Shown piece by piece: positions 3,218-47,616 of a DNA stretch of 64,000 nucleotides; position 1 is the stretch's first letter, and each line of letters begins with the position of its first letter. The stretch spans positions 1 through 64,000 of the forward strand of contig PKCS01000009.1 of assembly GCA_002862305.1 (NCBI GenBank), given 5' to 3'. Source of the DNA: Phycisphaerae bacterium (GTDB taxonomy: Bacteria > Planctomycetota > Phycisphaerae > Phycisphaerales > SM1A02). Below the pieces are notes generated by a model. That model made no database searches and had not been told where the DNA came from. It saw only the letters and a program-made list of their open reading frames with translations. The position numbers and the translations under genes are program-made.

Positions 3218-6200
3218 TGTCCGGATCGCTCCTCGTCGTTGACTGTCCCTTCATCGACTCGATCAGTTCGGCGACCGCACTGATTCGCACCCCGCCGCGG
3301 TCTGGAGCGAGCAGCAGGGACTCCCGGGCACTCGCACGCTCCCTGCCCGCCTCGTCGCTCCTCCCGCAGCCCTCGAGGATCTCAACCAGCCGAAGGCGGT
3401 GGTCGAGGTTGCCTGGATCGACATCGATGGCGGACCGGATGCTTCGCTCCGCCGCGAGGCACTCCCCGCCGCGGAACTCGATCAACGACCTGGTCTCGAG
3501 CAGCGCGCCGCGCGCTCCGGGGGGTGCCGACTCCAGTGCCTCGTCGATGATCTCGAGGGCCATCGTCCGTTCCCCCGCAAGACCTTCCGCGTACGCGAAG
3601 GCGAGTTCGTCCGATGCGGTGAGGAAATCCTCCAGCTGGTCGGGGGTCGACGAACCAGCCGGGGTCGCGCGGAATCGTTCAAGCACGTTCGAGAGGATCA
3701 GCCTCGCGGCCTGGTCCTCGCCCCGTAACGTGAGCAACCGAGCCTCCCTGAGGTCGACGGGGTCCCGATTCGGGGCCCCGGAACTCCACAACTCGATCGC
3801 CCTGTCGGCCGCCTCGAGGTCCTCGGTCCGTCCCGTTCGCTCCGCGATGCGGAGCAGGGCGTCCGCCCGGCGCATCAGGTCCTCCTGACTCGACTGCAGC
3901 GACGAATCGATGAGCCGCATCGCCTCCCGGGCCTCGTCGTTCCCGAGGCCGAGACTGGTCTCGATCCACGAATCCTTCAGGCCGGGTCCTTCCTCGATCA
4001 ACGGACCGAACCGCTCGAGGGCCTCCCTGGCCCGGCCGGATGCGATGAGGCACTTCAGGGTGGCCAGCCGGGCCTGCTCGGGGAAGTCCGCGGGAAGCAG
4101 CACCGGGTTGCCCGCCTCTCCCAGGATGCGATCTCGATCGTCGATGACCGGGAGGTAGCGCTCCATGAACTCCATGCCGGCAGGTCCGTCGCCGAGTGCC
4201 ACGCAGAGCTCCGCCGTCCGCACCTCCTGCATCGAACGCTCGCTGGGCGTCATCCGCCCCCCCGCCCGCTTCGCGAGTTCGATCGCCTCCTCCCAGGCCC
4301 CCGAGGACAATGCACTCTCCATCGCCCACAGGCATGGCTCGACCGCCGACGGCCGCTGGTCCATGGCGGTCATCGCGATGTCCAAGGCGCCCGGGTGGTC
4401 CCCCACCGAGCGGTGGAGCTGCCAGGAGAGTCTCGCGGCTTCCAGGCTCGCGGGCAGCTGCCGGGTGAGTTCGCCCGACCTCCGCACGTGCCCGGACTCG
4501 GGCGCCAGCGCCCCGGTCCTTCGATCGGTCGCATCGATCCTCAGCTGCTGGATCGATGCGCTTTCCGGAAGCGCTGCCCGGAGTGACTCGATCGCGCGGC
4601 TGGTGGTCCGGAGGTCCCCGGCGGCCATCGATTCGTCGACCAGTTCCCGGGAGGCATCGACGTTCCCCGGATCCAGCTTGAGGACCCGTTCCAGGAGTTC
4701 GATCCGTTCCAGCGTTCCAGGTGGGTCGGGGAGCGATCGATAGAGTGCCATCCAGGACCGGGGATCCTCCGGTGCGGATTCCGACAACCGGCGATCCCAG
4801 CGGGGCGCCTCCCCGGGATCCCCGCCGGGGGGATGGATGAGGATCCGGTACCTGATCCGCTCCTCCTCCGTGAGGCCATCATCCTCGTTGATCGTGGAGT
4901 ACGCCTCCTCCATCCGTCCGAGCTTCGCCAGGAGGCGGGCCTTCCCGAGTCGCGCGAGCACGTTGCCCGGGTCCTGCTGGAGGACCTCGTCGTAGCCGGC
5001 CAGCGCCTCCTCGAACCGTTCCCGTCGTTCCAGCAGGCCGGTCCGGTACAGGTGATCCACGGTGGAAGTCCCGGGGCTCGTGAATTGTTCGTGCACGTCG
5101 GGCACGCCCCGACCCTTCACCCGACGATCACCGGGACCATCCTCGACCAGCAGTTCCCGGTAGCGTTCGAGGTACTCGAGCGCGAGCCCTCCGTGGCCGG
5201 TCTTCTGGAGGAGGTCGATCAACGTGGGGTAGAGCTCGACCAGTCCGGGCCGGAGGTCCAGCACCCGCCTGAGGTAGCTGATCGCCTGGAGTGGGTCGGG
5301 GTCCTCCCCCGCCCTGAGGAGTGCCGACATCGCGAGGGCGCCGGGCAGCGAGGCGTTGCCCGCCTCGACGATGTCCCCGACGGAGACGATCGCCTCGGCC
5401 TTCGATCTGGGCGAGAGATCCTCGCCTCGCAGGGCACGCCCTGCTCGCGCGAGCACGTGGAGCGGGGAATCCTCGCCGAGTCGATCACCCACCACCTCGA
5501 GGGAGGCCTCCGCGAGATCCGGGGCGTGCGTCCAGACCCCGGGGATCCGGAGCACCATTCGCGCGGAGTCCAGGTCGTCGGCGAGTTCGTCGTGGATGGA
5601 TCGGATCAGCTGGAGTCTCGACTCCCAGGAGCCGCCTTCACGTCCGTAGTGGTCCATGATCCTCCGGAAGGCGGCCCGCCGTTCCGGGGATCCCTCCGGC
5701 AGCCCGCGGGCGGCGTCCAGCATCGAGTCGATCACGAGCTGCCGTGCCCGGGCGTCGTTCGAGCGACGTGCCTGGATCATGTCCGCCTCTGAATCAGTCC
5801 CCCCACGCCTCCTGAGGTGTTCGATCAGCGCCCCGTCGTCCCGGTCGTCCCCGAGTTCCGGAAGCTCGATGATCCTCAGGACGTCCTCGTGGTCGATCGA
5901 ATCGCTCGACACGACCTCTTCGCGTGCGAACCTGAGTCCCTCTTCGTCGGACTCGATGAAGGCGGCCTCGGCCACCAGTGGCAGCAGGACGCTGGCGTCC
6001 ACCCCTGCATCCCTCCACCCCAGGTAGCGCGCCTTGACGTTCTCGAACAGGCTGTCGCCCTGGTCCATGCGGCGGTCGGCGGCGGACGCGTTTCGACCGG
6101 TTCGCGCGAGCTCGACCAGGACCAGGCATTCCAGCACCGACACGTCGATCGACGGGTGCTTCACGGCCAGCAGGGCGGTGGTGTCGATCGCGCTGCCGAA

Positions 6201-35971: not shown

Positions 35972-38900
35972 ATGGGTGGAATCTCAGCGGGCGTCGGCTT
36001 GATCAGCGGGATCGACTCGGTCAGCCTCATCGAACAGCTGCTCGCGGTCGAGTCCCGGGTGAAGCTCCCGATTCAGGCAAGGATTGCCCGCCTCGCCACG
36101 GCGAAATCTGCGCTTCTGGACGTCAACTCCAGCCTGCTCGGACTGCAGTCCTCGGCAAGCGCCTTCCGCATCAACTCGATCTTCGAGTCGATCAGCGCCA
36201 TCTCCTCCGGTCCGGACGTGGTGGGGGTCAGCGCCACCGGGCGTGCACAGCCCGGTACCTACTCCTTCCTGGTGAAGCAGCTAGCCACGAGTTCGCAGTA
36301 CATCTCGCGCGGCTTCGCGAGCCGGGACGCCAGTCCCCTGGGGCTGGAGTCCTTCGGGGTCGAGTTCGGCAACGGTCGCCTCGCCTACGACGTCCCCCTC
36401 TCCGACCTCAACGGGGGCGACGGGGTGCAGCGCGGGATCATCACCATCACCGATCGTTCGGGAGGCAGCGCGGAGGTCGACCTCAGCCAGGCCACCACCG
36501 TCAACGAGGTGGTCTCCCTGATCAACGCGACGTCGGGCATCCGGGTGGAGGCCTCGATCAGCGGCGACTCGCTCGCGATCAACGACCTTTCGGGCGGACT
36601 CGGGAACCTGGTCGTCTCGAACGGCGTCGGCAACACCACCGCCTCCGACCTGGGCATCGAGGGCACGGTGAACGACGACCTCCTGCTCGGCGACTTCGTC
36701 AATCGACTCGGCCTCGACAGTTCGCTCTCGACACTGAACGGCGGGCTCGGGGTCTTCATCCGCGACGGCGTGACCGACTTCGTGGTCACCGTGGACGGGC
36801 AGGACTTCGACATCGATCTCGGCCGCGTCAACGCCCCGATCGCCGGCGACACCCTGCTCTCCGAGCTCGACGGCGGGGGGGGCATCGCGATCAACGACGA
36901 CCCCGACCAGCCCGACTTCACCATCACCGCCTCCAACGGGGTCGCGGTGGACGTCGACCTCGGTCGCGTCCTCGACGAGGACGGACTGACCGTACAGGAT
37001 CAGGTGGAGACGGTGCAGGACCTCATCGACCGCGTCAACGGGGTGCTCGCGGAGGAGTTCGGCGCCGGGCAGGTCACGATGACGATCAACGCCGACGCCG
37101 ACGGGTTCGTGCTCACCGACAACCTCGCCGGTGGTTCCGACCTGGTGATCGCCGGCGCGGGGCCTGGTGGCAGCTCGACCGCCGAGGACCTCGGGATCCT
37201 GGGAACCTCGACCGCCGGCGTGCTCTCCGGCGACGTGGTGATCAACAAGGTCCAGACCCCGCGGGCCCAGACCATCCGCGACGCGGCGGAACGGATCCTG
37301 GCCCAGACCGGCGGACTGGTCGAACTCTCCGAGAACGACAAGGGGATCGCCCTGCAGTTCACGTCCAACGGCGGCCCGATCAGCTTCGGTGCCGGCGCAC
37401 CCGGCTTCACCGGCGATCCGGCCGACATCCCGGAACGGACCCTCGCCAACCTCGGCTTCGCACTCGACGACTCGGGCGTGGAGCTGCTCGGCGAGCGGGT
37501 GATGGGGGGGTTCGGGACGGTACTGCTCGACCAGCTCAACGGCGGCGCCGGGCTCGGCGGCGCCAGCTCCCTGCTGGTCACCGACTCGGAGGGCAACTCG
37601 CTCGCCATCGACTTCCTCAACTTCGAATCGACCTTGTCCGGTCTGATGAACACCGTCAACACCCGGCTCGCCAACGCGGGCGTCGAGGTCCGGATGAGCA
37701 TCGACCAGGCGGGATCCGGGGTGGTGTTCACCGACAGCGCCGACGGGGACTCGGACTTCACGATCACGGGGTCGATGGCGACCGCCCTCGGGCTCCTGGA
37801 CGGGGACGATCCCACGACGATAGCCAGCGGGAACCTCGAGGTGCAGTACGTCACCCAGTCCTCGCGACTTTCCGAACTCAACTACGGCAGGGGGGTGGGG
37901 ACCGGTACCTTCCGCCTCACCGATTCCACCGGGGCCACCGCCACGGTCCGGATCGATTCCGATGCCGACTCCCTCTACGACGTCATGAAGCTGATCAACA
38001 CCCGCGGGCTGGAGATCAGGGCGGAGATCAACGCCACCGGCGACGGCATCGACCTCGTCGACACCACCCTCGAGAACGGCGCGACCGCGACCTCCCGCAT
38101 GAAGGTGGAGGACGTCTCCGGGACCGTCGCGAGCGCACTCCGCATCGGGGGGGAGTCCGAGGAGGTCGGGGGCGACCTCCGTGGTTCCTACGCGATCCGG
38201 CTCGACGTCGATCCCACCGACACCATCGACGACCTGATCGACAAGCTCGAGCAGGCCGACGCACCGATCACCGCGACGGTGCTCAACACCGGGGCGGGCA
38301 ACGCCCCGTGGTACCTCAGCCTCACCTCGTCGATCAGCGGCACGGTCGGGGAGCTGCTCATCGACACCGACGGGGTGGACCTCGGGCTGGAGGAGCTGGT
38401 CGCCGCCCGCGACGCCGAGGCCTTCATCGGATCCACCGACCCCGCGGACGCCCTGCTGGTGAGCGCCCACCAGAACGAGCTCGACTTCGTGGTCGACGGG
38501 CTGAGCATCGATCTCCTGCAGGCCTCCGACCAGCCGGTCACCATCACCGTCGAACGCGACGAGGACTCGATCCTCGCGGCGGTGACCGAATTCACCGAGG
38601 CGTTCAACCAGGTGATGTCCAAGATCAACCAGTACGACAGCTATGACTCCGAGACCGAGGTGCGGGGTCCGCTGCTGGGCGACTCCACCGTCTCGCTGGT
38701 TCGTTCGCGCCTCTACTCCACGCTCCAGCAGCGGGTCCAGAACGTCGACGGTCCCTACCAGTACCTCTCCCAGGTCGGGATCCGACTGGGATCCAACGGC
38801 GCGATCGAGTTCGACGAGGACAAGTTCCGCCAGGCGTACGAGAGCGATCCCGCGGCGGTCGAGGCGCTGTTCACCGCCTACGACGCGCAGACCTCCACCA

Positions 38901-39232
38901 CCGAGGTGCTGGAGGACATCGATCCCGGCATCAGCATCCAGCGCGACAGCACGGTCTACGCCTCGCTCGGTTTCGGGGATCTCTTCGACCAGCTGCTCGA
39001 CGACCTCACCGACGCGTCGATCGGCACCGTCACCCTCGCCGACCAGCGCTTCCAGACCCAGATCGACTCCCAGACCGATCGACTCGAACTCATCGACCAG
39101 CGCATCGAGGCCAAGCGCGAGCGTCTCCAGCGGGAGTTCCTCGCGATGGAGACGGCGCTGGCACAGCTCCAGAGCCAGCAGGGAGCGCTGCTCTCGCTCG
39201 GTTCCAGCCTCAACCTTCGTGGAGGGGCCTGA
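35972..39232 (+). CDS. fliD: Flagellar hook-associated protein 2 (filament cap) FliD, oversized
   Basis: 1086 residues against roughly 450-700 in most bacteria. The N-terminal FliD domain (GGISAGVGLISGIDSVSLIEQL) and the C-terminal FliD domain (from about 820, ending in a coiled-coil DRLELIDQRIEAKRERLQ) are normal. The extra length is four flagellin-hook IN modules at about 141-230, 251-410, 519-610 and 632-725, each with an LNGG-type turn, a short beta region and T(V/L)xDVVxxIN. FliD caps the growing filament and folds flagellin outside the cell. The ATG at 35972 has GGGAG 7 nt upstream and is preferred to a GTG at 35942. fliS follows 52 bp later. Confidence 0.93.
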   Translation: MGGISAGVGLISGIDSVSLIEQLLAVESRVKLPIQARIARLATAKSALLDVNSSLLGLQSSASAFRINSIFESISAISSGPDVVGVSATGRAQPGTYSFLVKQLATSSQYISRGFASRDASPLGLESFGVEFGNGRLAYDVPLSDLNGGDGVQRGIITITDRSGGSAEVDLSQATTVNEVVSLINATSGIRVEASISGDSLAINDLSGGLGNLVVSNGVGNTTASDLGIEGTVNDDLLLGDFVNRLGLDSSLSTLNGGLGVFIRDGVTDFVVTVDGQDFDIDLGRVNAPIAGDTLLSELDGGGGIAINDDPDQPDFTITASNGVAVDVDLGRVLDEDGLTVQDQVETVQDLIDRVNGVLAEEFGAGQVTMTINADADGFVLTDNLAGGSDLVIAGAGPGGSSTAEDLGILGTSTAGVLSGDVVINKVQTPRAQTIRDAAERILAQTGGLVELSENDKGIALQFTSNGGPISFGAGAPGFTGDPADIPERTLANLGFALDDSGVELLGERVMGGFGTVLLDQLNGGAGLGGASSLLVTDSEGNSLAIDFLNFESTLSGLMNTVNTRLANAGVEVRMSIDQAGSGVVFTDSADGDSDFTITGSMATALGLLDGDDPTTIASGNLEVQYVTQSSRLSELNYGRGVGTGTFRLTDSTGATATVRIDSDADSLYDVMKLINTRGLEIRAEINATGDGIDLVDTTLENGATATSRMKVEDVSGTVASALRIGGESEEVGGDLRGSYAIRLDVDPTDTIDDLIDKLEQADAPITATVLNTGAGNAPWYLSLTSSISGTVGELLIDTDGVDLGLEELVAARDAEAFIGSTDPADALLVSAHQNELDFVVDGLSIDLLQASDQPVTITVERDEDSILAAVTEFTEAFNQVMSKINQYDSYDSETEVRGPLLGDSTVSLVRSRLYSTLQQRVQNVDGPYQYLSQVGIRLGSNGAIEFDEDKFRQAYESDPAAVEALFTAYDAQTSTTEVLEDIDPGISIQRDSTVYASLGFGDLFDQLLDDLTDASIGTVTLADQRFQTQIDSQTDRLELIDQRIEAKRERLQREFLAMETALAQLQSQQGALLSLGSSLNLRGGA

Positions 39233-39284: not shown

Positions 39285-39869
39285 ATGAACACCAATCCGC
39301 AGAACCCGATCTACGGTCCCAACTCCGGCCGCAAGCCCGAATCCGAACCCAAGCGGGCGGCCCCGGTCGCCTCGCCCCGGAACGAGTCCACCCCCAACGC
39401 CTACCTCAAGACCAGGGTGCTCGCCGCCTCGCCCGCCGAACTTCGACTCATGCTGATCGAGGGAGCGATCCGCTTCACCGAGCAGGCCCGCTCCGGTCTC
39501 GAGCAGTCCCATCCCGAGCACACCTTCGAAGGGTTCTCACGGGCCCGCGCGGTCATCACCGAACTGATCTCGGGGCTTGATCGGGAAGTCGCCCCCGAGC
39601 TCTGCGACCGCCTCAACGGGCTCTACACCTTCCTGTTCACCCGGCTGGTCAGCGCCTCCAGCGAACGCTCGATCGAGGCCTGCGACGAGGTCCTCGAACT
39701 GCTTCGCTACGAGCAGGAGACCTGGACCCGACTGGTCGAGGCTCTCGGCCGGGAGAACGACTCGGCCTCGAGGATGAGCGAGCTTCCGGATGCACCGCTC
39801 CCGGGCGTGTCCGGTCCAGGATCGGGCCTCGACCTCCCCGCGGGGGCGCGCATCTCCGCCACCGGCTAG
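39285..39869 (+). CDS. fliS: Flagellin export chaperone FliS
   Basis: 194 residues. The FliS core (about 38-155) has AYLKTRVLAASPAELRLML, the typical first helix, followed by GAIRFTEQAR and four helices. It binds the flagellin C-terminus in the cytoplasm and prevents early polymerisation. The protein is longer than the usual 130 residues because of a 35-residue polar start and a 35-residue Ser/Pro/Gly tail. It converges with the flippase gene, overlapping by 4 bp at the stops. Confidence 0.92.
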   Translation: MNTNPQNPIYGPNSGRKPESEPKRAAPVASPRNESTPNAYLKTRVLAASPAELRLMLIEGAIRFTEQARSGLEQSHPEHTFEGFSRARAVITELISGLDREVAPELCDRLNGLYTFLFTRLVSASSERSIEACDEVLELLRYEQETWTRLVEALGRENDSASRMSELPDAPLPGVSGPGSGLDLPAGARISATG

Positions 39870-41785
39870 GCGGCCTTCGCCCGGCGGAGCTTGCGCCACA
39901 CCTCGCCGGTCACCCCGAGCAGCTCCCGGTACCGTGCGGGTTCGACCAGCCTGATCAGCAGGATGTAGGCCGCCAGGGCGACCAGGAGCATCAGCGGGCA
40001 CCAGACCAGCAACGCGAGCCAGTCCGGGGTGATCGACCGGGAGCCGAGGGCCACCAGGACGAACGGCAGGCACGCCAGCATCGGCAACCCGTTGATGCGG
40101 ATGACCTCGAGCACCGAGTGCTCGTGTCGCACGCAGAGCCAGATCATGATCTGCGGGAACAGCGTGAAGAGCACGAACATGCCCCAGGTGAGTCCGATGG
40201 CTCCGCCCGCCCAGCTGGCGAGGGCCGCGGTACCGATGAAGAACACCGTCTGGACGAACTGGATCCTGAACCACGTCCCGAACCTGCCGGTCCCCTTCAG
40301 CACCGAGGTGCACAGCGACTGCGTCGCCGAGAAGGACTGGGCGATCAGGAGGATCGCCGCGATCTCGATCGCAGGATTCCACTGGGCCCCGAACACCACC
40401 GGTATCAGCACCGGAGTGACCGCGGCCGCTCCGATGAACAGGGGCATCGTGAACCCGCTGATGGTCCGTGCGGCCCGCATGAATCCGTGACTCACCCTCC
40501 GGGGGTCGTTCTGGAGGTTGCTGAAGATCGGCACCAGGGCATTGGAGAGGTTCACGGTCAGCACCACGTTGACCTGGACCGAGATCAGCGTCGCCCAGGT
40601 GTAGTAGCCGGTCTCGGAGCTGCTCGCGAACACCGCCAGCACCAGGGCGGGAACCTGCCGGCTGGCTCCGATCGACCACTGGCCGATCCAGAGCAGGATC
40701 GCGTCCTTCAACAGGGGGAGGATCGGTTCCCGGTCCGCCGCCTCGATCTTCGGGAGCGCCCCGGAGATGCGTGCGGAGTTGATCAGGACCGTCAGGGGGA
40801 ACAGCACCACCGGGAGCACCAGCCCGATCGCGCCTCCCCCCATGAGCACCACCCCGATCGCGATCCCGTACCCGATCACGTCGCCCACCAGGGTCCCGAA
40901 CGCGATCTGCTCGAACCGGAGGGTCAGGGTGGCGGCGGCCGCGAAGGGGGTGGCGAGCAGGTTGATCAGCGGCCGGATCCCCAGCAGCACGATCATCACC
41001 AGCAGGACGTTCGACCGTGCCGGGATCCCCAGCACCTCCATCACGTCGCTGGCGACCGAGTCACCGGTCTCCAGCACCGCGGTCCGACCATCCGGCGATC
41101 CGATCGTCAGTCGATCGGTGGCCGCGTCCAGCGAGGCCAGCACGCGTCCGTTCCCGAAGGTCTCGGCGAGGGTGGCATTGAGCAGCGCGGCGTACTGGTC
41201 GATCGTGGTCGAGCCGTCCACCGCCACGGGCAGCCGGAACCGGCCCTCCACGTCGCCGCACCGGAGCGAGACCTCGCCCCGGAGGTTCCCGATCAGATCG
41301 GGCAACGGCGGATCGGATCGGATCTCCGCCAGGGTGGTGGTTCCCCGCGCCGTCCCTCCGTCGATCGTCCGGATCTCGTCCCCCGACCGGACCGAGATGA
41401 ACTGCGCCGCCAGGAGGATCGCCACCGCACTCGCCACGCTCGCGAAGGACAGCAGCTTCCAGGCGCTCGGGAGCGCGTTGGCGAGGCGCTCGCCCCGCTG
41501 CACCAGCAGGTCCTTCAGTGATTCCGGCCGGACCACGCTCAGGAGGGCGTTGATCCCCAGCGCCACCGCCACCAGCCCGAAGTCGCTGGGGACCAGGAGC
41601 CTCGCGAAGATGATCTGGCAGACCAGGGTGAGCGAGCGTCCGACCCCGGTCTGGATCATGCTGACCAGGGATCCCCGGATCGCGTCGCCCTTGTACCCCC
41701 GCGGGCCCCGGGAGCCACGTCCCTCGTCGCCGGATTCCAGCGCTCCGGGAGGGGGGGCTTCGCGTTCGCTGCCGGGATCAGTCAT
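39866..41785 (-). CDS. Polysaccharide flippase (PST/Wzx-like) with an inserted FliD-like IN module
   Basis: 639 residues. The membrane parts fit the Polysacc_synt/PST flippase family: helices from about 45 to 128, then again from about 258 to the end. Residues 131-256, expected to be extracytoplasmic, are a soluble insert absent from ordinary flippases. The insert resembles the IN modules of FliD: GEVSLRCGDVEGRF, a TTIDQYAALLN helix, then LAETFGNGRV and VMEVLGI. The equivalent FliD segment (about 348-410) has TVQDLIDRVN, LAEEFGAGQV and AEDLGIL. It should flip a lipid-linked repeat unit of the second polysaccharide. It is divergent from the ligase-like gene by 149 bp. Confidence 0.85.
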   Translation of the reverse strand: MTDPGSEREAPPPGALESGDEGRGSRGPRGYKGDAIRGSLVSMIQTGVGRSLTLVCQIIFARLLVPSDFGLVAVALGINALLSVVRPESLKDLLVQRGERLANALPSAWKLLSFASVASAVAILLAAQFISVRSGDEIRTIDGGTARGTTTLAEIRSDPPLPDLIGNLRGEVSLRCGDVEGRFRLPVAVDGSTTIDQYAALLNATLAETFGNGRVLASLDAATDRLTIGSPDGRTAVLETGDSVASDVMEVLGIPARSNVLLVMIVLLGIRPLINLLATPFAAAATLTLRFEQIAFGTLVGDVIGYGIAIGVVLMGGGAIGLVLPVVLFPLTVLINSARISGALPKIEAADREPILPLLKDAILLWIGQWSIGASRQVPALVLAVFASSSETGYYTWATLISVQVNVVLTVNLSNALVPIFSNLQNDPRRVSHGFMRAARTISGFTMPLFIGAAAVTPVLIPVVFGAQWNPAIEIAAILLIAQSFSATQSLCTSVLKGTGRFGTWFRIQFVQTVFFIGTAALASWAGGAIGLTWGMFVLFTLFPQIMIWLCVRHEHSVLEVIRINGLPMLACLPFVLVALGSRSITPDWLALLVWCPLMLLVALAAYILLIRLVEPARYRELLGVTGEVWRKLRRAKAA

Positions 41786-41934
41786 CGTCGTTTATCCGCC
41801 GCCGTGGTCTGGGCGATCCGTCCCCCATGACCGCTTTCTGGATGCAGTTGTCCGATCAATCATATCGAGAAACCCGGTTCAAGCCGATAATGCTCCTGTA
41901 GTTGAGAACCTACCCTGCGCTGGGACACCTGCTG

Positions 41935-43290
41935 ATGCTGATCCTTGGCTTCCTGTTCATCATCGCCGTCGTGGTCGCCTTCGGCCTGGCACTCCTGAGG
42001 CCGTGGTTCTGCTTCGTGCTGCTCATCGGCTTCGTCCCCATCGAGGGCGTCATCCAGACCTACTTCCCGTTCTTCGCCTCCGACGCCAATCGGCCCCTGC
42101 TCAACTACACCGTCGCCCTCACCGGGGCGGCCACCGTGGCGATCCGGTTCTTCCGGGAACCCGACTCGTTCCGCAACGCGGTCAACCCGGTGCTGGTGCT
42201 GGTGATCATCCTCCAGTTCCTCGGCTACGCGGCGCTCCTCTGGACCCCCGACTACCCCAACGGCCTCGCGCTCACCTGGTCCAAGGCCCCGTACTCCATC
42301 CTGTACCTGCTGCTCACTCCGCTGCTCATCTCGACCCTTCCCGAGTTCGGCCGGGCCCGCATCCCCTTCATCTTCGTCTCGACCGCCGTGCTGATGTTCC
42401 TGGTGGCCAGTCCCAACGTCCGGTTCGAGAACGCCCGGCTGGTCAACTACATCGGTGCCGGGATGAAGACCGGGGTGCTCGCCAACGGCCAGCTCGGGGT
42501 GCTGGTCCTGATCTTCGTGGCCCTGATGACCTACCAGGGCACCCGCAAGCTGGTCTTTCCCCTCGCGGCCTTCGCGGGTCTCTACGGCCTCGGGATCGGC
42601 TTCTACACCGGGGCCCGCGGCCAGGTCATGGCCGGGATCCTCGTGGTCTTCCTCGCCTACCCCTTCGCGCGTCGCATCAAGAACTTCGGGAACTTCATGA
42701 CCATCGGGGCCGGTCTGGGGATCTTCCTGCTCCTGATGCTGCTGTCCATACGGTTCTTCATCGGCGACGGCAACGCCGATCGCTGGACGTTCGAGAGCCT
42801 CGCCAGCGGTGGGGGTCGCGCGGAGATCGTCGGGGTGTCCCTCGCGGCCTACTTCAGCAACCCGGGGTCCTGGTTGCTCGGTGCCGGGACCGGCAGCTTC
42901 TCCGAGCTGATGAACAACGAGCATGTCTACCCCCACAACTACTTCGTCGAGGCGCTGCTCGAACTGGGCCTGGTGGGATTCGTGGTCTACCTCGCGATCC
43001 TGTTTCTCGTCGCCCGCAGTGCCTACCAGCTCTACGTCAGGCACCGGGAGGACGACTACCTGCGTCCCATCGTGGTGCTCCTCATCGGGGTCGCGCTGTT
43101 CGTGCTGCTGATCTCCCTCAAGCAGGGGACCGTGCATTCCCCGGGACACACCTTCGTGTGGTTCCTGCTCATCGCCAGGCTGAACGCCCGCGACCTCTCC
43201 GAGGAGTCCCGCGAACTGCAGGCCGAGGACCCCCCCGCCGAGGAGTACCACGAGTCCGAAGCCATGGACGAGAGGCTCGAACATGCCTGA
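41935..43290 (+). CDS. O-antigen ligase/polymerase-like membrane protein (second locus)
   Basis: 451 residues with about eleven membrane segments. The conserved PHNYFVEALLELGLVGFVVY segment near residue 332 is the classic O-antigen ligase/Wzy signature. The N-terminal start is uncertain: the ATG at 41935 is used, while a TTG 11 codons upstream is also possible. The C-terminal 40 residues are acidic and cytoplasmic. It would polymerise or ligate the second polymer, and is divergent from the flippase gene. Confidence 0.85.
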   Translation: MLILGFLFIIAVVVAFGLALLRPWFCFVLLIGFVPIEGVIQTYFPFFASDANRPLLNYTVALTGAATVAIRFFREPDSFRNAVNPVLVLVIILQFLGYAALLWTPDYPNGLALTWSKAPYSILYLLLTPLLISTLPEFGRARIPFIFVSTAVLMFLVASPNVRFENARLVNYIGAGMKTGVLANGQLGVLVLIFVALMTYQGTRKLVFPLAAFAGLYGLGIGFYTGARGQVMAGILVVFLAYPFARRIKNFGNFMTIGAGLGIFLLLMLLSIRFFIGDGNADRWTFESLASGGGRAEIVGVSLAAYFSNPGSWLLGAGTGSFSELMNNEHVYPHNYFVEALLELGLVGFVVYLAILFLVARSAYQLYVRHREDDYLRPIVVLLIGVALFVLLISLKQGTVHSPGHTFVWFLLIARLNARDLSEESRELQAEDPPAEEYHESEAMDERLEHA

Positions 43291-43317: not shown

Positions 43318-44469
43318 GTGACCAGCGTGGGCATCGTGCAGCCGATCATCCCGAGCTACCGGCAGCCCGTCTTCGCCGAGCTGGCCCGCCGGCCGGGGAT
43401 CGACCTGACGGTGTACGCCCCCCTCGGGAGAAGCCATGGGTCGCTGCCCGGCACCGGGGCGGTCGACGACTACGCCACGGTGGATGTCTCCGCCCGCAAC
43501 GCGGGCCCGTTCGTCTGGGACCCGGGGTCGCTCGAGGCGGCCCGGGCCGGACACGAGGTCCTGATCCTCTCCTGGCAGCCGCGGGCGCTCTTCCTGAGGC
43601 GAGCCCTTCGCACCGCACGTCGACTCGGGGTGGGCACCATCATCTGGGGACACGGCTACAGCAAGAACGACTCGCCGATGCGTCGTCGGCTCCGGCTCCG
43701 GCCCGCCCGCCTCGCGGACGCCTGCCTGTACTACGCGCCCGCCACCGCGGCCCGCGCCCCCCTCGACGGGATCGAGCCCGAACGGGCGTTCTCCGCCCCG
43801 AACGCGATCGACCAGAGCGCGATCGAGGCCGCGAAGTCGAAGTGGGCCGAGGTTCCGGGACGACTCCGGGCGTTCCAGACGAGTGCGGGCATCGATCCCG
43901 AGCGGACCCTGATCTTCATCTCGCGGATCGAGGAGGACAAGCGGCTGGAGCTCCTCCTGGAGGCCATGCCGCACGTGCTCGAGGCCGACCCCCGGATGAC
44001 GCTCCTGGTGGTCGGGGAAGGCACTGCACGCGCCTCGGCGGAGGCGTACTCGGACTCCCTGGGCCTCGGGGACTCGGTCCGGTTCCTCGGCGCGATCTAC
44101 GACGAGGAGGAACTCGCCGGCTGGTGCCTGTCCTCGATCTGCATGACCTATCCCGTGGCGGTGGGATTGAGCGTGATGCACGCCTTCGGCTACGGGCTCC
44201 CGGTGCTCACCTCCGACGACCTCGCCAGCCACAACCCCGAGATCAACGCGATACGCGACGGGGTGAACGGGATGCTCTATCGGGAGGGCGACGTGCGCTC
44301 GCTCGCGGATGCGATCATCCGGCTGGCCGGGGATCCCGAACTGAGGCGGCGGATGTCGTTGGCCGCCCTGGACTCGGTACGGGGACCGGACGGATGGACG
44401 GTCGAGAACATGGTCGACGGGTTCGTCCGCTGCATCGAGGCCGTACGGTCGATGCACCAGCGTGGCTGA
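43318..44469 (+). CDS. GT4-type glycosyltransferase (second locus)
   Basis: 383 residues. GIVQPIIPSYRQPVFAELAR at the start is the GT4 N-terminal pattern; FISRIEEDKRLELLLEAM and HAFGYGLPVLTSDD in the C-terminal half form the donor site. It starts with a GTG 27 bp after the ligase-like gene and probably uses GDP-fucose or GDP-mannose made by gmd and fcl, though the donor cannot be read from sequence. It converges with gmd. Confidence 0.88.
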   Translation: MTSVGIVQPIIPSYRQPVFAELARRPGIDLTVYAPLGRSHGSLPGTGAVDDYATVDVSARNAGPFVWDPGSLEAARAGHEVLILSWQPRALFLRRALRTARRLGVGTIIWGHGYSKNDSPMRRRLRLRPARLADACLYYAPATAARAPLDGIEPERAFSAPNAIDQSAIEAAKSKWAEVPGRLRAFQTSAGIDPERTLIFISRIEEDKRLELLLEAMPHVLEADPRMTLLVVGEGTARASAEAYSDSLGLGDSVRFLGAIYDEEELAGWCLSSICMTYPVAVGLSVMHAFGYGLPVLTSDDLASHNPEINAIRDGVNGMLYREGDVRSLADAIIRLAGDPELRRRMSLAALDSVRGPDGWTVENMVDGFVRCIEAVRSMHQRG

Positions 44470-44490: not shown

Positions 44491-45540
44491 CTACTGGTCG
44501 TGGCCGCCGCCCGAGGGGATCTTGTGGCCGGCATCCACGAGGGTGCGTTCCTGGCGCGCGAGCTCGAGGTCGTGCTCGGCCATCATCACCGCCAGCTCCT
44601 CGACGCTGGTGCTGGCCTCCCAGCCGAGTCGTTCCCGGGCCAGGGAGGGATCACCCAGCAGTTCATCGACCTCCGCCGGGCGGAAGTAGCGCGGGTCGAT
44701 CTCGATGTACCGCTCCGGGTCGAGCTCGTGGTGCTCGAACACCAGTTCGCAGAACCTCCGAACGGGGATCATCTTCCCGGTCGCCACCACGTAGTCACCC
44801 GGTTCCTCCTGCTGGAGCATCCTCCACATCGCGTCCACGTAGTCCCCGGCGAAGCCCCAGTCCCGCTGCGCATCGAGGTTCCCCAGGTAGAGCTTGTCCT
44901 GGAGCCCGAGCTTGATCCGCCCGGCGGCCCGGGTGATCTTCCGGGTGACGAACGTCTCGCCGCGCCGGGGGCTTTCGTGGTTGAAGAGGATGCCGCAGCT
45001 GGCGTGCAGCTCGTAGCTCTCCCGGTAGTTGACGGTGAGCCAGTGGCCGAACACCTTGGCGCATCCGTACGGGGACCTCGGGTAGAAGGGGGTGCGTTCG
45101 GTCTGCGGGACCTCCTGGACCTTCCCGAACATCTCAGAGGAACATGCCTGGTAGTAGCGGATCTGCTTGCCGGAGGACTGCTGGCCGTCGCGGACGCCCT
45201 CCAGCAGGTTCGAAGTGCCCAGCGCCACGATGTTGGCGGTGTCGATCGGCTGGTCGAAGCTGACCCGGACGTGGCTCTGGGCCCCGAGGTTGTACACCTC
45301 GTCCGGCTGGATGCTCCTGATCAGCGCCGCCATCCGGGAACCGTCGGTCAGGTCCCCGTAGTGAAGCTTGAGCCTGGCGCTTTCCAGGTGGGGGTCCTCG
45401 TAGATGTGGTCGAGGCGGTCGGTGTTGAAGGTGGATGCTCGCCGGATCACCCCGTGCACCTCGTAGCCCTTGTCCAGGAGCTGTTCCGCGAGGTAGGACC
45501 CGTCCTGCCCTGTGATTCCGGTGATGAGCGCTGTCTTCAT
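44491..45540 (-). CDS. gmd: GDP-mannose 4,6-dehydratase
   Basis: 349 residues beginning [22 protein letters not shown], the diagnostic Gmd start. The catalytic region has [15 protein letters not shown], and YGCAKVFGH carries the Tyr and Lys of the SDR site. It converts GDP-mannose to GDP-4-keto-6-deoxymannose, the substrate of the divergently encoded fcl product. The pair would supply GDP-L-fucose for this polysaccharide locus. The gene is read opposite to its neighbours, ending 21 bp from the GT4 stop. Confidence 0.96.
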
Positions 45541-45671
45541 TGGTCTGTCAGGGTCCGTTCCTGGCTGGGGTCCGGAACCCCCCGGGAATCACGTTCTCCG
45601 CGGGGGATTGGCGGTACCTCTCTGGTCTGACCGATGGTACGGTCTGTTGGTACCTAATCGGAGTGCTTGTC

Positions 45672-46616
45672 TTGGATCTTTCAAATAAGCGCATTTCCGT
45701 CACGGGCGGGGCCGGGTTCCTCGGTTCCTTCCTCCTCGAGCGACTTCATGCCCGGAACTGCGGGGAGATCTTCGTGCCCCGTCGCGAGGACTACGATCTG
45801 ACCACCGAGCGAGGGGTGGCGGACTTTTATTCGGACGCTCGTCCGGACGTCGTCATCCACCTCGCCGCGGAGGTGGGCGGCATCGGCGCCAACCGCGACA
45901 ACCCCGGCCGCTACTTCTACGCGAACATGGCGATGTCCCTTCACCTGATCGAGCATGCCCGGATCAACGGGATCGAGAAGTTCGTCCAGACCGGCACCAT
46001 CTGCGCCTACCCCTGCCACACCCCGGTCCCCTTCGCGGAGGAGAACCTCTGGAACGGGTACCCCGAGCCGACGAACGCTCCCTACGGGGTGGCGAAGAAG
46101 GCGGCCCAGGTCATGCTCGACGGCTATCGCCGCCAGTACGGGCTGGCCGGCTGCTATCTGCTCCCGGTCAACCTGTACGGACCACGCGACAACTTCGACC
46201 CCCACTCCTCGCACGTGATCCCGGCCCTGATCCGGAAGTGCGTGGAAGCCTGCGATTCGGGGAGTGACCACATCGAATGCTGGGGGACCGGCTCGGCGAG
46301 TCGGGAGTTCCTCTACGTCGAGGACGCCGCCGAGGGGATCGTGCGGGCCACCGAGGTCATGGACGAGCCCACTCCGATCAACCTGGGCACCTGCATGGAG
46401 ATCACCATCAAGGACCTGGTCGAACTCATCGCCCGGCTCACCGGTTTCCAGGGCGAGATCCGCTGGGATCCCACGAAGCCCGACGGCCAGCCGCGCCGCT
46501 GCCTGGACACCAGTCGGGCCCGGGAGCTCCTCGACTGGGAGGCGGGGACCGGCTTCGAGGAGGGCCTGCGCGAGACCATCGACTGGTACCGGGCGCACCG
46601 GGAGTCGATCAGGTGA
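45672..46616 (+). CDS. fcl: GDP-L-fucose synthase
   Basis: 314 residues, the normal length. The NADP motif [12 protein letters not shown] is near residue 9, then [20 protein letters not shown], which is a Fcl signature, and YGVAKKAAQ with the catalytic Tyr/Lys. It epimerises and reduces GDP-4-keto-6-deoxymannose. Start choice: the TTG at 45672 has GGAG 8 nt upstream, whereas a GTG at 45663 would overlap that motif, and the longer frame reaches back into the intergenic region. It is divergent from gmd with a 131-bp gap. Confidence 0.94.
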
Positions 46617-46722
46617 GCAACCTCCCGGTCAACCTCGAATCAAGCATCCCCCCCGAGCGCGTCACCGATCCCACCCCTCCTCCGTGCGGGTCGGCCTAGG
46701 ACCCGTCTGGAAGGCCTGTTCA

Positions 46723-47616
46723 ATGTCCGCAGACGTCACGGTCCTCATCCTCACCAAGAACGAGGAATTCAACCTCCCCCACGCCCTCGAGAGCGTCTCG
46801 TCGTTCGCACGCCGGGTGGTGGTGGTGGACAGTGGAAGCACTGATCGCACCCTGGAGATCGCCCGGGAAGCGGGGGCCGACGTCTACGAGAACGAGTGGT
46901 ACAACTACGCGACCCAGCTCAACTGGGGGCTCGACAACACCGGGATCGACACCACCTGGACGTTCCGGCTCGACGCGGACGAGGTGGTGCTGCCGGAATT
47001 GCAGAAGTTTTTCCTCGAAGGGATCGATTCCGTCGCGGAGGACGTCGACGGGATCGAGATCCGCCGCAGGATGTACTTCCTGGGTCGGTGGATCAGGCAT
47101 GGCGGGATCTACCCCAGCTACATGGTCCGCATCTTCAAGACCGGAAGGGTCCGCTGCGAGATGTCGCTCATGGACGAGCACATGGTGGTCGAGGGTGCGA
47201 TCCACAGGGTGGAGGCCGACATCAAGGACGACAACACCAAGTCGATCCGCTGGTGGACGGCCAAGCACAACTGGTACTCGGACCGGGAACTCTTCGACAT
47301 CCTCGAGCGACAGGGCACCGGCGGGGGTGCGGAGCTGGTCGTCCCCCGACTGTTCGGAACTCCCGTGGAGCGGAAGCGGTGGATGAAGACCAAGGTCTAC
47401 GCCCGGGTCCCGCTCATGTTCCGGTCCACCCTCTACTACCTCTATCGCTACTACCTCAGGCTGGGCTTCCTCGACGGGCGCGAGGGCCAGATCTACCACT
47501 TCCTCCAGGCGTACTGGTACCGGTTCCTGGTCGACGCCAAGTTCTTCGAGACCAACCGGAATCCACGCATCAAGGAGGAGCTGGTCGAGGAGATCTACCA
47601 GTCCCTCAAGGACTAG
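46723..47616 (+). CDS. GT2 glycosyltransferase, copy A of a tandem pair (WaaE-like)
   Basis: 297 residues. VLILTKNEEFNLPHALESV opens the GT2 fold, VVVDSGSTDRT is at 33-43, and the metal/sugar site LDADE is at 83-87. A C-terminal amphipathic region with several aromatic clusters (YYLYRYYLRLGFLDG) probably associates with the membrane. The WaaE/KdtX-type length is typical. The neighbouring copy B has the same length and aligns from end to end without gaps that I could see. It likely adds a sugar to a lipid-linked unit. Confidence 0.88.
   Translation: MSADVTVLILTKNEEFNLPHALESVSSFARRVVVVDSGSTDRTLEIAREAGADVYENEWYNYATQLNWGLDNTGIDTTWTFRLDADEVVLPELQKFFLEGIDSVAEDVDGIEIRRRMYFLGRWIRHGGIYPSYMVRIFKTGRVRCEMSLMDEHMVVEGAIHRVEADIKDDNTKSIRWWTAKHNWYSDRELFDILERQGTGGGAELVVPRLFGTPVERKRWMKTKVYARVPLMFRSTLYYLYRYYLRLGFLDGREGQIYHFLQAYWYRFLVDAKFFETNRNPRIKEELVEEIYQSLKD

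Follow-up and report, generated by a model that had tools for sequence, protein, structure and literature searches.

Wzx, WzxC/WzxE and MurJ, flippases of the MOP superfamily that act on lipid-linked oligosaccharides, and FliD, the flagellar cap protein, are the described proteins closest to the locus studied here. Flippases of the Wzx type tend to be compact, their membrane helices joined by short loops, and modules of the FliD type are expected in exported axial proteins. In a stretch of 64,000 nucleotides from a Phycisphaerae bacterium (contig PKCS01000009.1, hereafter the window), we find a flippase that carries a FliD-like module between two of its membrane helices. Both components are well known and their combination appears to be a new variant; a search of 5.39 million open full-text papers gave no report of a flippase with a FliD-type module.

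The flippase (Table 1) matches PF13440 above the cut-off of that profile, and its full-length AF2 model, of moderate confidence (pLDDT 66), ranks MurJ (6nc6; E 3.0e-6, probability 1.00) and WzxE (9g95; E 1.2e-5, probability 1.00) at the top of the PDB. The nearest NCBIfam entries, PRK10459 and an O-glycosylation Wzx, both remain under their cut-offs. The Pfam match and the proximity of the model to MurJ and WzxE identify the protein as a MOP-superfamily flippase; profile and model alike indicate an inner-membrane protein of the MOP/Wzx type, predicted to flip a lipid-linked glycan that probably contains fucose. Neither FliD_N nor FliD_C was detected in it with Pfam, and to judge from its domains it is not a FliD. 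With Wzx, WzxC/WzxE and MurJ it shares PF13440 and the MOP fold, and, as in Wzx-type loci, a Wzy-like ligase, glycosyltransferases and nucleotide-sugar genes are encoded alongside. It differs from these flippases by a folded domain of about 129 residues in the loop between helices 3 and 4.

Table 1. Features of the window discussed in the text (positions in nucleotides of the window)
Feature	Position	Strand	Details
fliD, flagellar cap protein with about six IN-like modules	35972..39232	+	PF02465 E 2e-18; PF07195 E 2.5e-41
Part of fliD best matching the insert (module 2 with lead-in)	36830..37168	+	FliD residues ~297-409; hhalign
fliS, flagellar export chaperone	39285..39869	+	PF02561 E 5e-26
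MOP-superfamily (Wzx-type) polysaccharide flippase	39866..41785	-	639 aa; PF13440 E 3.6e-28
Inserted soluble domain	41009..41395	-	Flippase residues 131-259, helix 3-4 loop, predicted periplasmic
IN-like core of the insert	41024..41281	-	Residues ~169-254; hhalign, 80 columns to combined FliD modules, and secondary structure of the model
Wzy/O-antigen-ligase-like membrane protein	41902..43290	+	PF04932 E 3e-6, below cut-off; synteny
GT4-type glycosyltransferase	43318..44469	+	PF00534 E 6e-23
GDP-mannose 4,6-dehydratase	44491..45540	-	PF16363 E 2e-137; kept in 6/6 genomes
GDP-L-fucose-synthase-like epimerase	45663..46616	+	PF01370 E 2e-55; in 5/6 loci as read
GT2-type glycosyltransferase	46690..47616	+	PF00535 E 6e-13

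A first-pass annotation of the window had described a soluble insert in this loop, and its coordinates proved right: positions 41395 to 41012 of the reverse strand encode flippase residues 131-258, which comparison with homologues extends by one residue. The Pfam match (PF13440/PF01943) flanks the insert on both sides and is broken exactly there, the best stretch starting at residue 261 and the match of the other family stopping at residue 96, while the segment itself matches no Pfam family. In all 22 other flippases of the family and order that were compared, the alignment shows a short loop joining helix 3 to helix 4, in agreement with the expectation that flippases are normally short-looped. 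Modelled alone, the insert is confidently predicted to be an autonomously folding domain (pLDDT 86.5, pTM 0.82) with the order strand-strand-helix-strand-strand-strand-helix; within the full-length model it is resolved poorly (pLDDT 28-65). The N-terminus of MOP flippases such as MurJ and Wzx is cytoplasmic, and the loop from helix 3 to helix 4 accordingly comes to lie in the periplasm. This orientation, predicted here from homology to MurJ and WzxE, agrees with the charges, as the insert is acidic (19 acidic against 12 basic residues) and the C-terminus of the flippase is basic (8 against 3).

The likeness of the insert to the IN modules of FliD had been proposed from short pairwise resemblances. 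Pairwise similarity alone is weak (BLASTP E 0.003 for one comparison) and was set aside as too weak to decide; the quoted pair LAETFGNGRV/LAEEFGAGQV is peculiar to the insert copy of the PKCS01000009.1 genome. The same annotation would have read the absence of a PF07196 match against the likeness. Formally there is none: with E values up to 10 admitted, the insert stays unmatched by PF07196 and below its gathering cut-off, but the profile is blind to the FliD modules of the same window as well. Its silence on the insert is thus uninformative, and PF07196 alone was set aside as a judge. As an observation in its own right, PF07196 under-covers planctomycete FliD, none of the roughly six modules being detected at E up to 10.

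At the profile level the likeness stood. Aligned with hhalign to the combined modules of five FliDs, the six known inserts score 35.9 over 80 columns, compared with maxima of 17.8 and 17.2 for 100 column shuffles each of the modules and of the inserts and of 17.8 for 81 decoy segments of real neighbouring protein families. The FliD modules score mostly 22-49 against each other in the same test, the sixth only 15-16 against modules 1 and 2. Against whole FliD from 19 genomes the insert scores 44.6 (E 2.4e-5; maximum of 40 shuffles 18.7, reversed FliD 20.6, flippase core 14.4), insert positions 13-110 aligning to FliD residues ~297-403 over 98 columns that include the lead-in before the module, at about 20% identity. 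Module 2 is the best single partner of the six (37.0), and without it the score is still 29.3. The insert can hence be classed among IN-type modules in the broad sense, its profile similarity to FliD extending over the whole module and above controls. As judged from these profiles, it shares ancestry with the IN-type modules found in axial proteins of the flagellum, FliD being the closest. It has the strand-strand-helix-strand-strand(-strand) order of the FliD D2/D3 modules (PF07196-like), in register over 80-98 columns. Unlike them, it is single-copy and belongs to a membrane transporter, where it is predicted to face the periplasm, whereas they are part of an exported filament cap; it also lies below detection by PF07196.

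The same picture emerged when genomes were scanned with only the insert profile, an approach that does not presuppose FliD. This search, one of the checks proposed with the first-pass annotation, returned FliDs as the best non-self matches. In the phylum sample of 392 genomes only one non-self match fell below 1e-3, a FliD of G785 (E 1.6e-4) whose identity PF07195 confirmed. In the order sample of 400 genomes, FliDs took the first two non-self places, at E 1.5e-6 and 2.7e-4. The 24 non-self matches of the order scan that were listed as loci comprise 12 FliDs and two FlgE-like hook proteins, and FliDs were again the best non-self matches among 2138 ORFs of the fetched loci. Structure prediction, also proposed as a check, gave a more mixed result: the top three Foldseek hits of the insert model in the PDB were flagellin p5, Helicobacter pylori FliD and domains D2/D3 of Pseudomonas aeruginosa FliC, at E 0.63-0.67 and TM of at most 0.42, none individually significant. 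The flagellin homologue p5 of Sphingomonas sp. A1 (2zbi, 3k8v), first in this fold search, also ranks second in a sequence-profile search of the PDB, where it is again not individually significant. In contrast to the insert-bearing flippase, p5 is a cell-surface flagellin homologue. It has been reported to bind alginate (PMC8286568), which suggests that axial-protein folds can engage polysaccharide.

Other candidate relatives were considered. The profile built from 24 hook proteins reaches 28.3 against the insert over 40 columns (shuffles at most 16.8), below the values for FliD module and whole FliD, and a FlgE hook module was rejected as the closest relative. FlgE-like ORFs of the order (L074, L078, L093-L122) share the stretch 'TTI.DF..FL..LG...V..D..TG.I.I.GN.G', which resembles both the insert and the FliD modules. 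Matches to GDSL lipases (L082, L084, PDB 3rjt) have only a short LP..(T)I.EY stretch in common with the insert and were taken as chance. Finally, several stretches of three giant ORFs (12094 aa in G048:C13, 6793 aa in G049:C18 and 3525 aa in L076 of genome G944) match the FliD or insert profiles; from their sequences, these ORFs look like large surface proteins composed partly of IN-like modules.

The insert is present in all six full-length flippase orthologues that we found, in two genera of one marine Phycisphaerales family. Searching 181 genomes of this family with the insert profile yielded these six carriers only, four in genus g1 and two in genus g7. The fifth g1 genome, in which the insert was not found, has a completeness of 54%; AG-333-L23, which has fliD at the same contig position and appears to be this genome, has a fliD contig that stops short of the place where the flippase is expected. 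Class-, phylum- and order-wide genome samples contained no further insert-carrying flippase detectable with the insert profile, plasmids searched with the insert gave no match, and neither did a first contig scan with the flippase as query. Those carriers that have public names are marine Phycisphaerales metagenome assemblies, e.g. TMED75 and SP135. Since all six orthologues carry the segment, an assembly fault or frameshift artefact is ruled out.

On a tree of the flippase core, built with the insert columns removed, the six carriers form one branch with 100/100 support, so that a single gain suffices. The tree indicates that the insert was gained once, in the ancestor of the two genera, and then kept. 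It is under purifying selection, weaker than that on the transporter core: dN is below dS in three close pairs (0.28/0.95, 0.67/1.34 and 0.86/1.25) and about twice the dN of the core, and identities of insert and core in close pairs are 39 versus 55, 59 versus 79 and 28 versus 57%. With this roughly twofold faster evolution and few invariant residues, the insert displays no evident site for binding or catalysis.

The genomic neighbourhood is equally constant. As the first-pass annotation had claimed, fliD and fliS adjoin the flippase, and in all six carrier genomes, each of them with this fliD-fliS neighbourhood, the flippase lies near these genes, a Wzy/O-ligase-like gene and a GDP-mannose dehydratase gene. 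The fliD product (about 1085 aa) is 60-70% identical across five genomes. In the window, fliS and the flippase stand tail to tail with a 4-nt overlap (39866-39869); the tail-to-tail arrangement is seen in G000, G003, G010 and G110, and in G002 and G004 the Wzy-like and dehydratase genes lie between fliS and the flippase. The Wzy-like gene diverges from the flippase across a 116-nt gap, likely a shared control region. Its product stays below the cut-off of Wzy_C (PF04932; 27.4 against 31.7 bits) and weakly matches the O-linking transferase TfpM (E 7e-4, 18.7 bits against a cut-off of 600), which makes protein O-glycosylation a possible fate of the flipped glycan.

Related flippases occur near flagellar genes also without the insert. 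In G029, from another genus, about 5 kb separate a related insert-less flippase from fliS, and several other genomes that lack the insert have genes of polysaccharide type after fliS. The association of flippase and flagellar genes may therefore predate the insert. In genome G036 (locus L052, positions 4456-6093), a second, distantly related flippase is found about 1.2 kb from fliS, hinting that flippases are repeatedly associated with fliD-fliS. Two further genomes, G020 and G028, contain close insert-less relatives of the flippase and no FliD match was found in them; the flippase thus seems to persist where FliD is absent.

What could a FliD-type module do in a flippase? Axial-protein modules are surface-exposed display domains, which makes their reuse as an interaction surface natural. 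In the explanation that we favour, such a module would have been inserted once into the helix 3-4 loop in the ancestor of the two genera and retained, and would form, at the periplasmic opening of the flippase, a rigid platform for docking or for guiding the glycan. This platform would pass the flipped glycan to the adjacent Wzy/O-ligase-like enzyme, encoded alongside in all six genomes. We give about an even chance (roughly 0.5) to the insert being such a periplasmic scaffold, for docking or for hand-off of the glycan toward the Wzy-like protein. That the conservation of the Wzy-like gene is common to the whole gene cluster counts against a specific hand-off partner. A related proposal, which we consider unlikely, is that an axial module was recruited as a functional periplasmic part of the flippase that holds or recognises the flipped glycan or else a periplasmic partner belonging to the flagellum or the envelope; if true, glycan export would be physically tied to another surface structure.

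The main rival to a hand-off platform is a passenger module: recombination with flagellar DNA close by would have brought it in by accident, and its independent folding in a permissive loop of the periplasm would have let it be tolerated since, with no role beyond leaving the flippase undisturbed. The faster evolution of the insert and its few invariant residues would fit such a passenger, as would the insert-less relative near fliD in G029, which suggests that the neighbourhood came first. However, the insert has been kept by every orthologue over three divergent lineages with dN below dS and, while constraint on folding alone could also explain this, we regard a mere passenger as possible but doubtful. 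It was also proposed that the module couples glycan export to the flagellum, and one can imagine it binding FliD, rod, hook or ring proteins and thereby tying export to the flagellum or to a switch from swimming to attached life. The constant fliD-fliS neighbourhood and the FliD-type ancestry of the module are in line with this idea, but adjacency alone means little when polysaccharide-type genes follow fliS in genomes devoid of the insert, and G029 has its insert-less flippase near fliD. Moreover, the flagellum exports FliD through a channel of its own, and the protein does not enter the periplasm freely. With the loop predicted to be periplasmic, no encounter between FliD and the insert is expected; the coupling is not supported and seems to us quite improbable.

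Common ancestry itself could be questioned, if a small alpha/beta domain of other origin had by chance acquired the secondary-structure pattern of FliD. The failure of PF07196 to see the insert, the non-significant Foldseek E values and the low insert-FliD identity would all be expected from such convergence. Against it, sequence-profile scans of about 800 genomes rank FliD ahead of all other proteins, the alignment runs through the lead-in, and decoys score half or less, which leaves convergence very improbable. The source of the module is a separate question. Capture from the neighbouring fliD, as first proposed, is plausible and consistent with the match of the family's own FliDs at one module together with its lead-in. 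FliDs of another family of the order nevertheless score as high or higher against the insert, in a comparison biased by their choice as the best of 400 genomes, and for this reason the donor cannot be named.

Whatever its role, the graft is genuine and old, and a small group of marine planctomycetes has conserved it. A single ancient graft kept across two genera indicates that modules of the flagellar filament are reusable in glycan export machinery. As a natural domain-insertion variant, this flippase also lends itself to the question of whether the release or hand-off of the flipped glycan is affected by a periplasmic domain.
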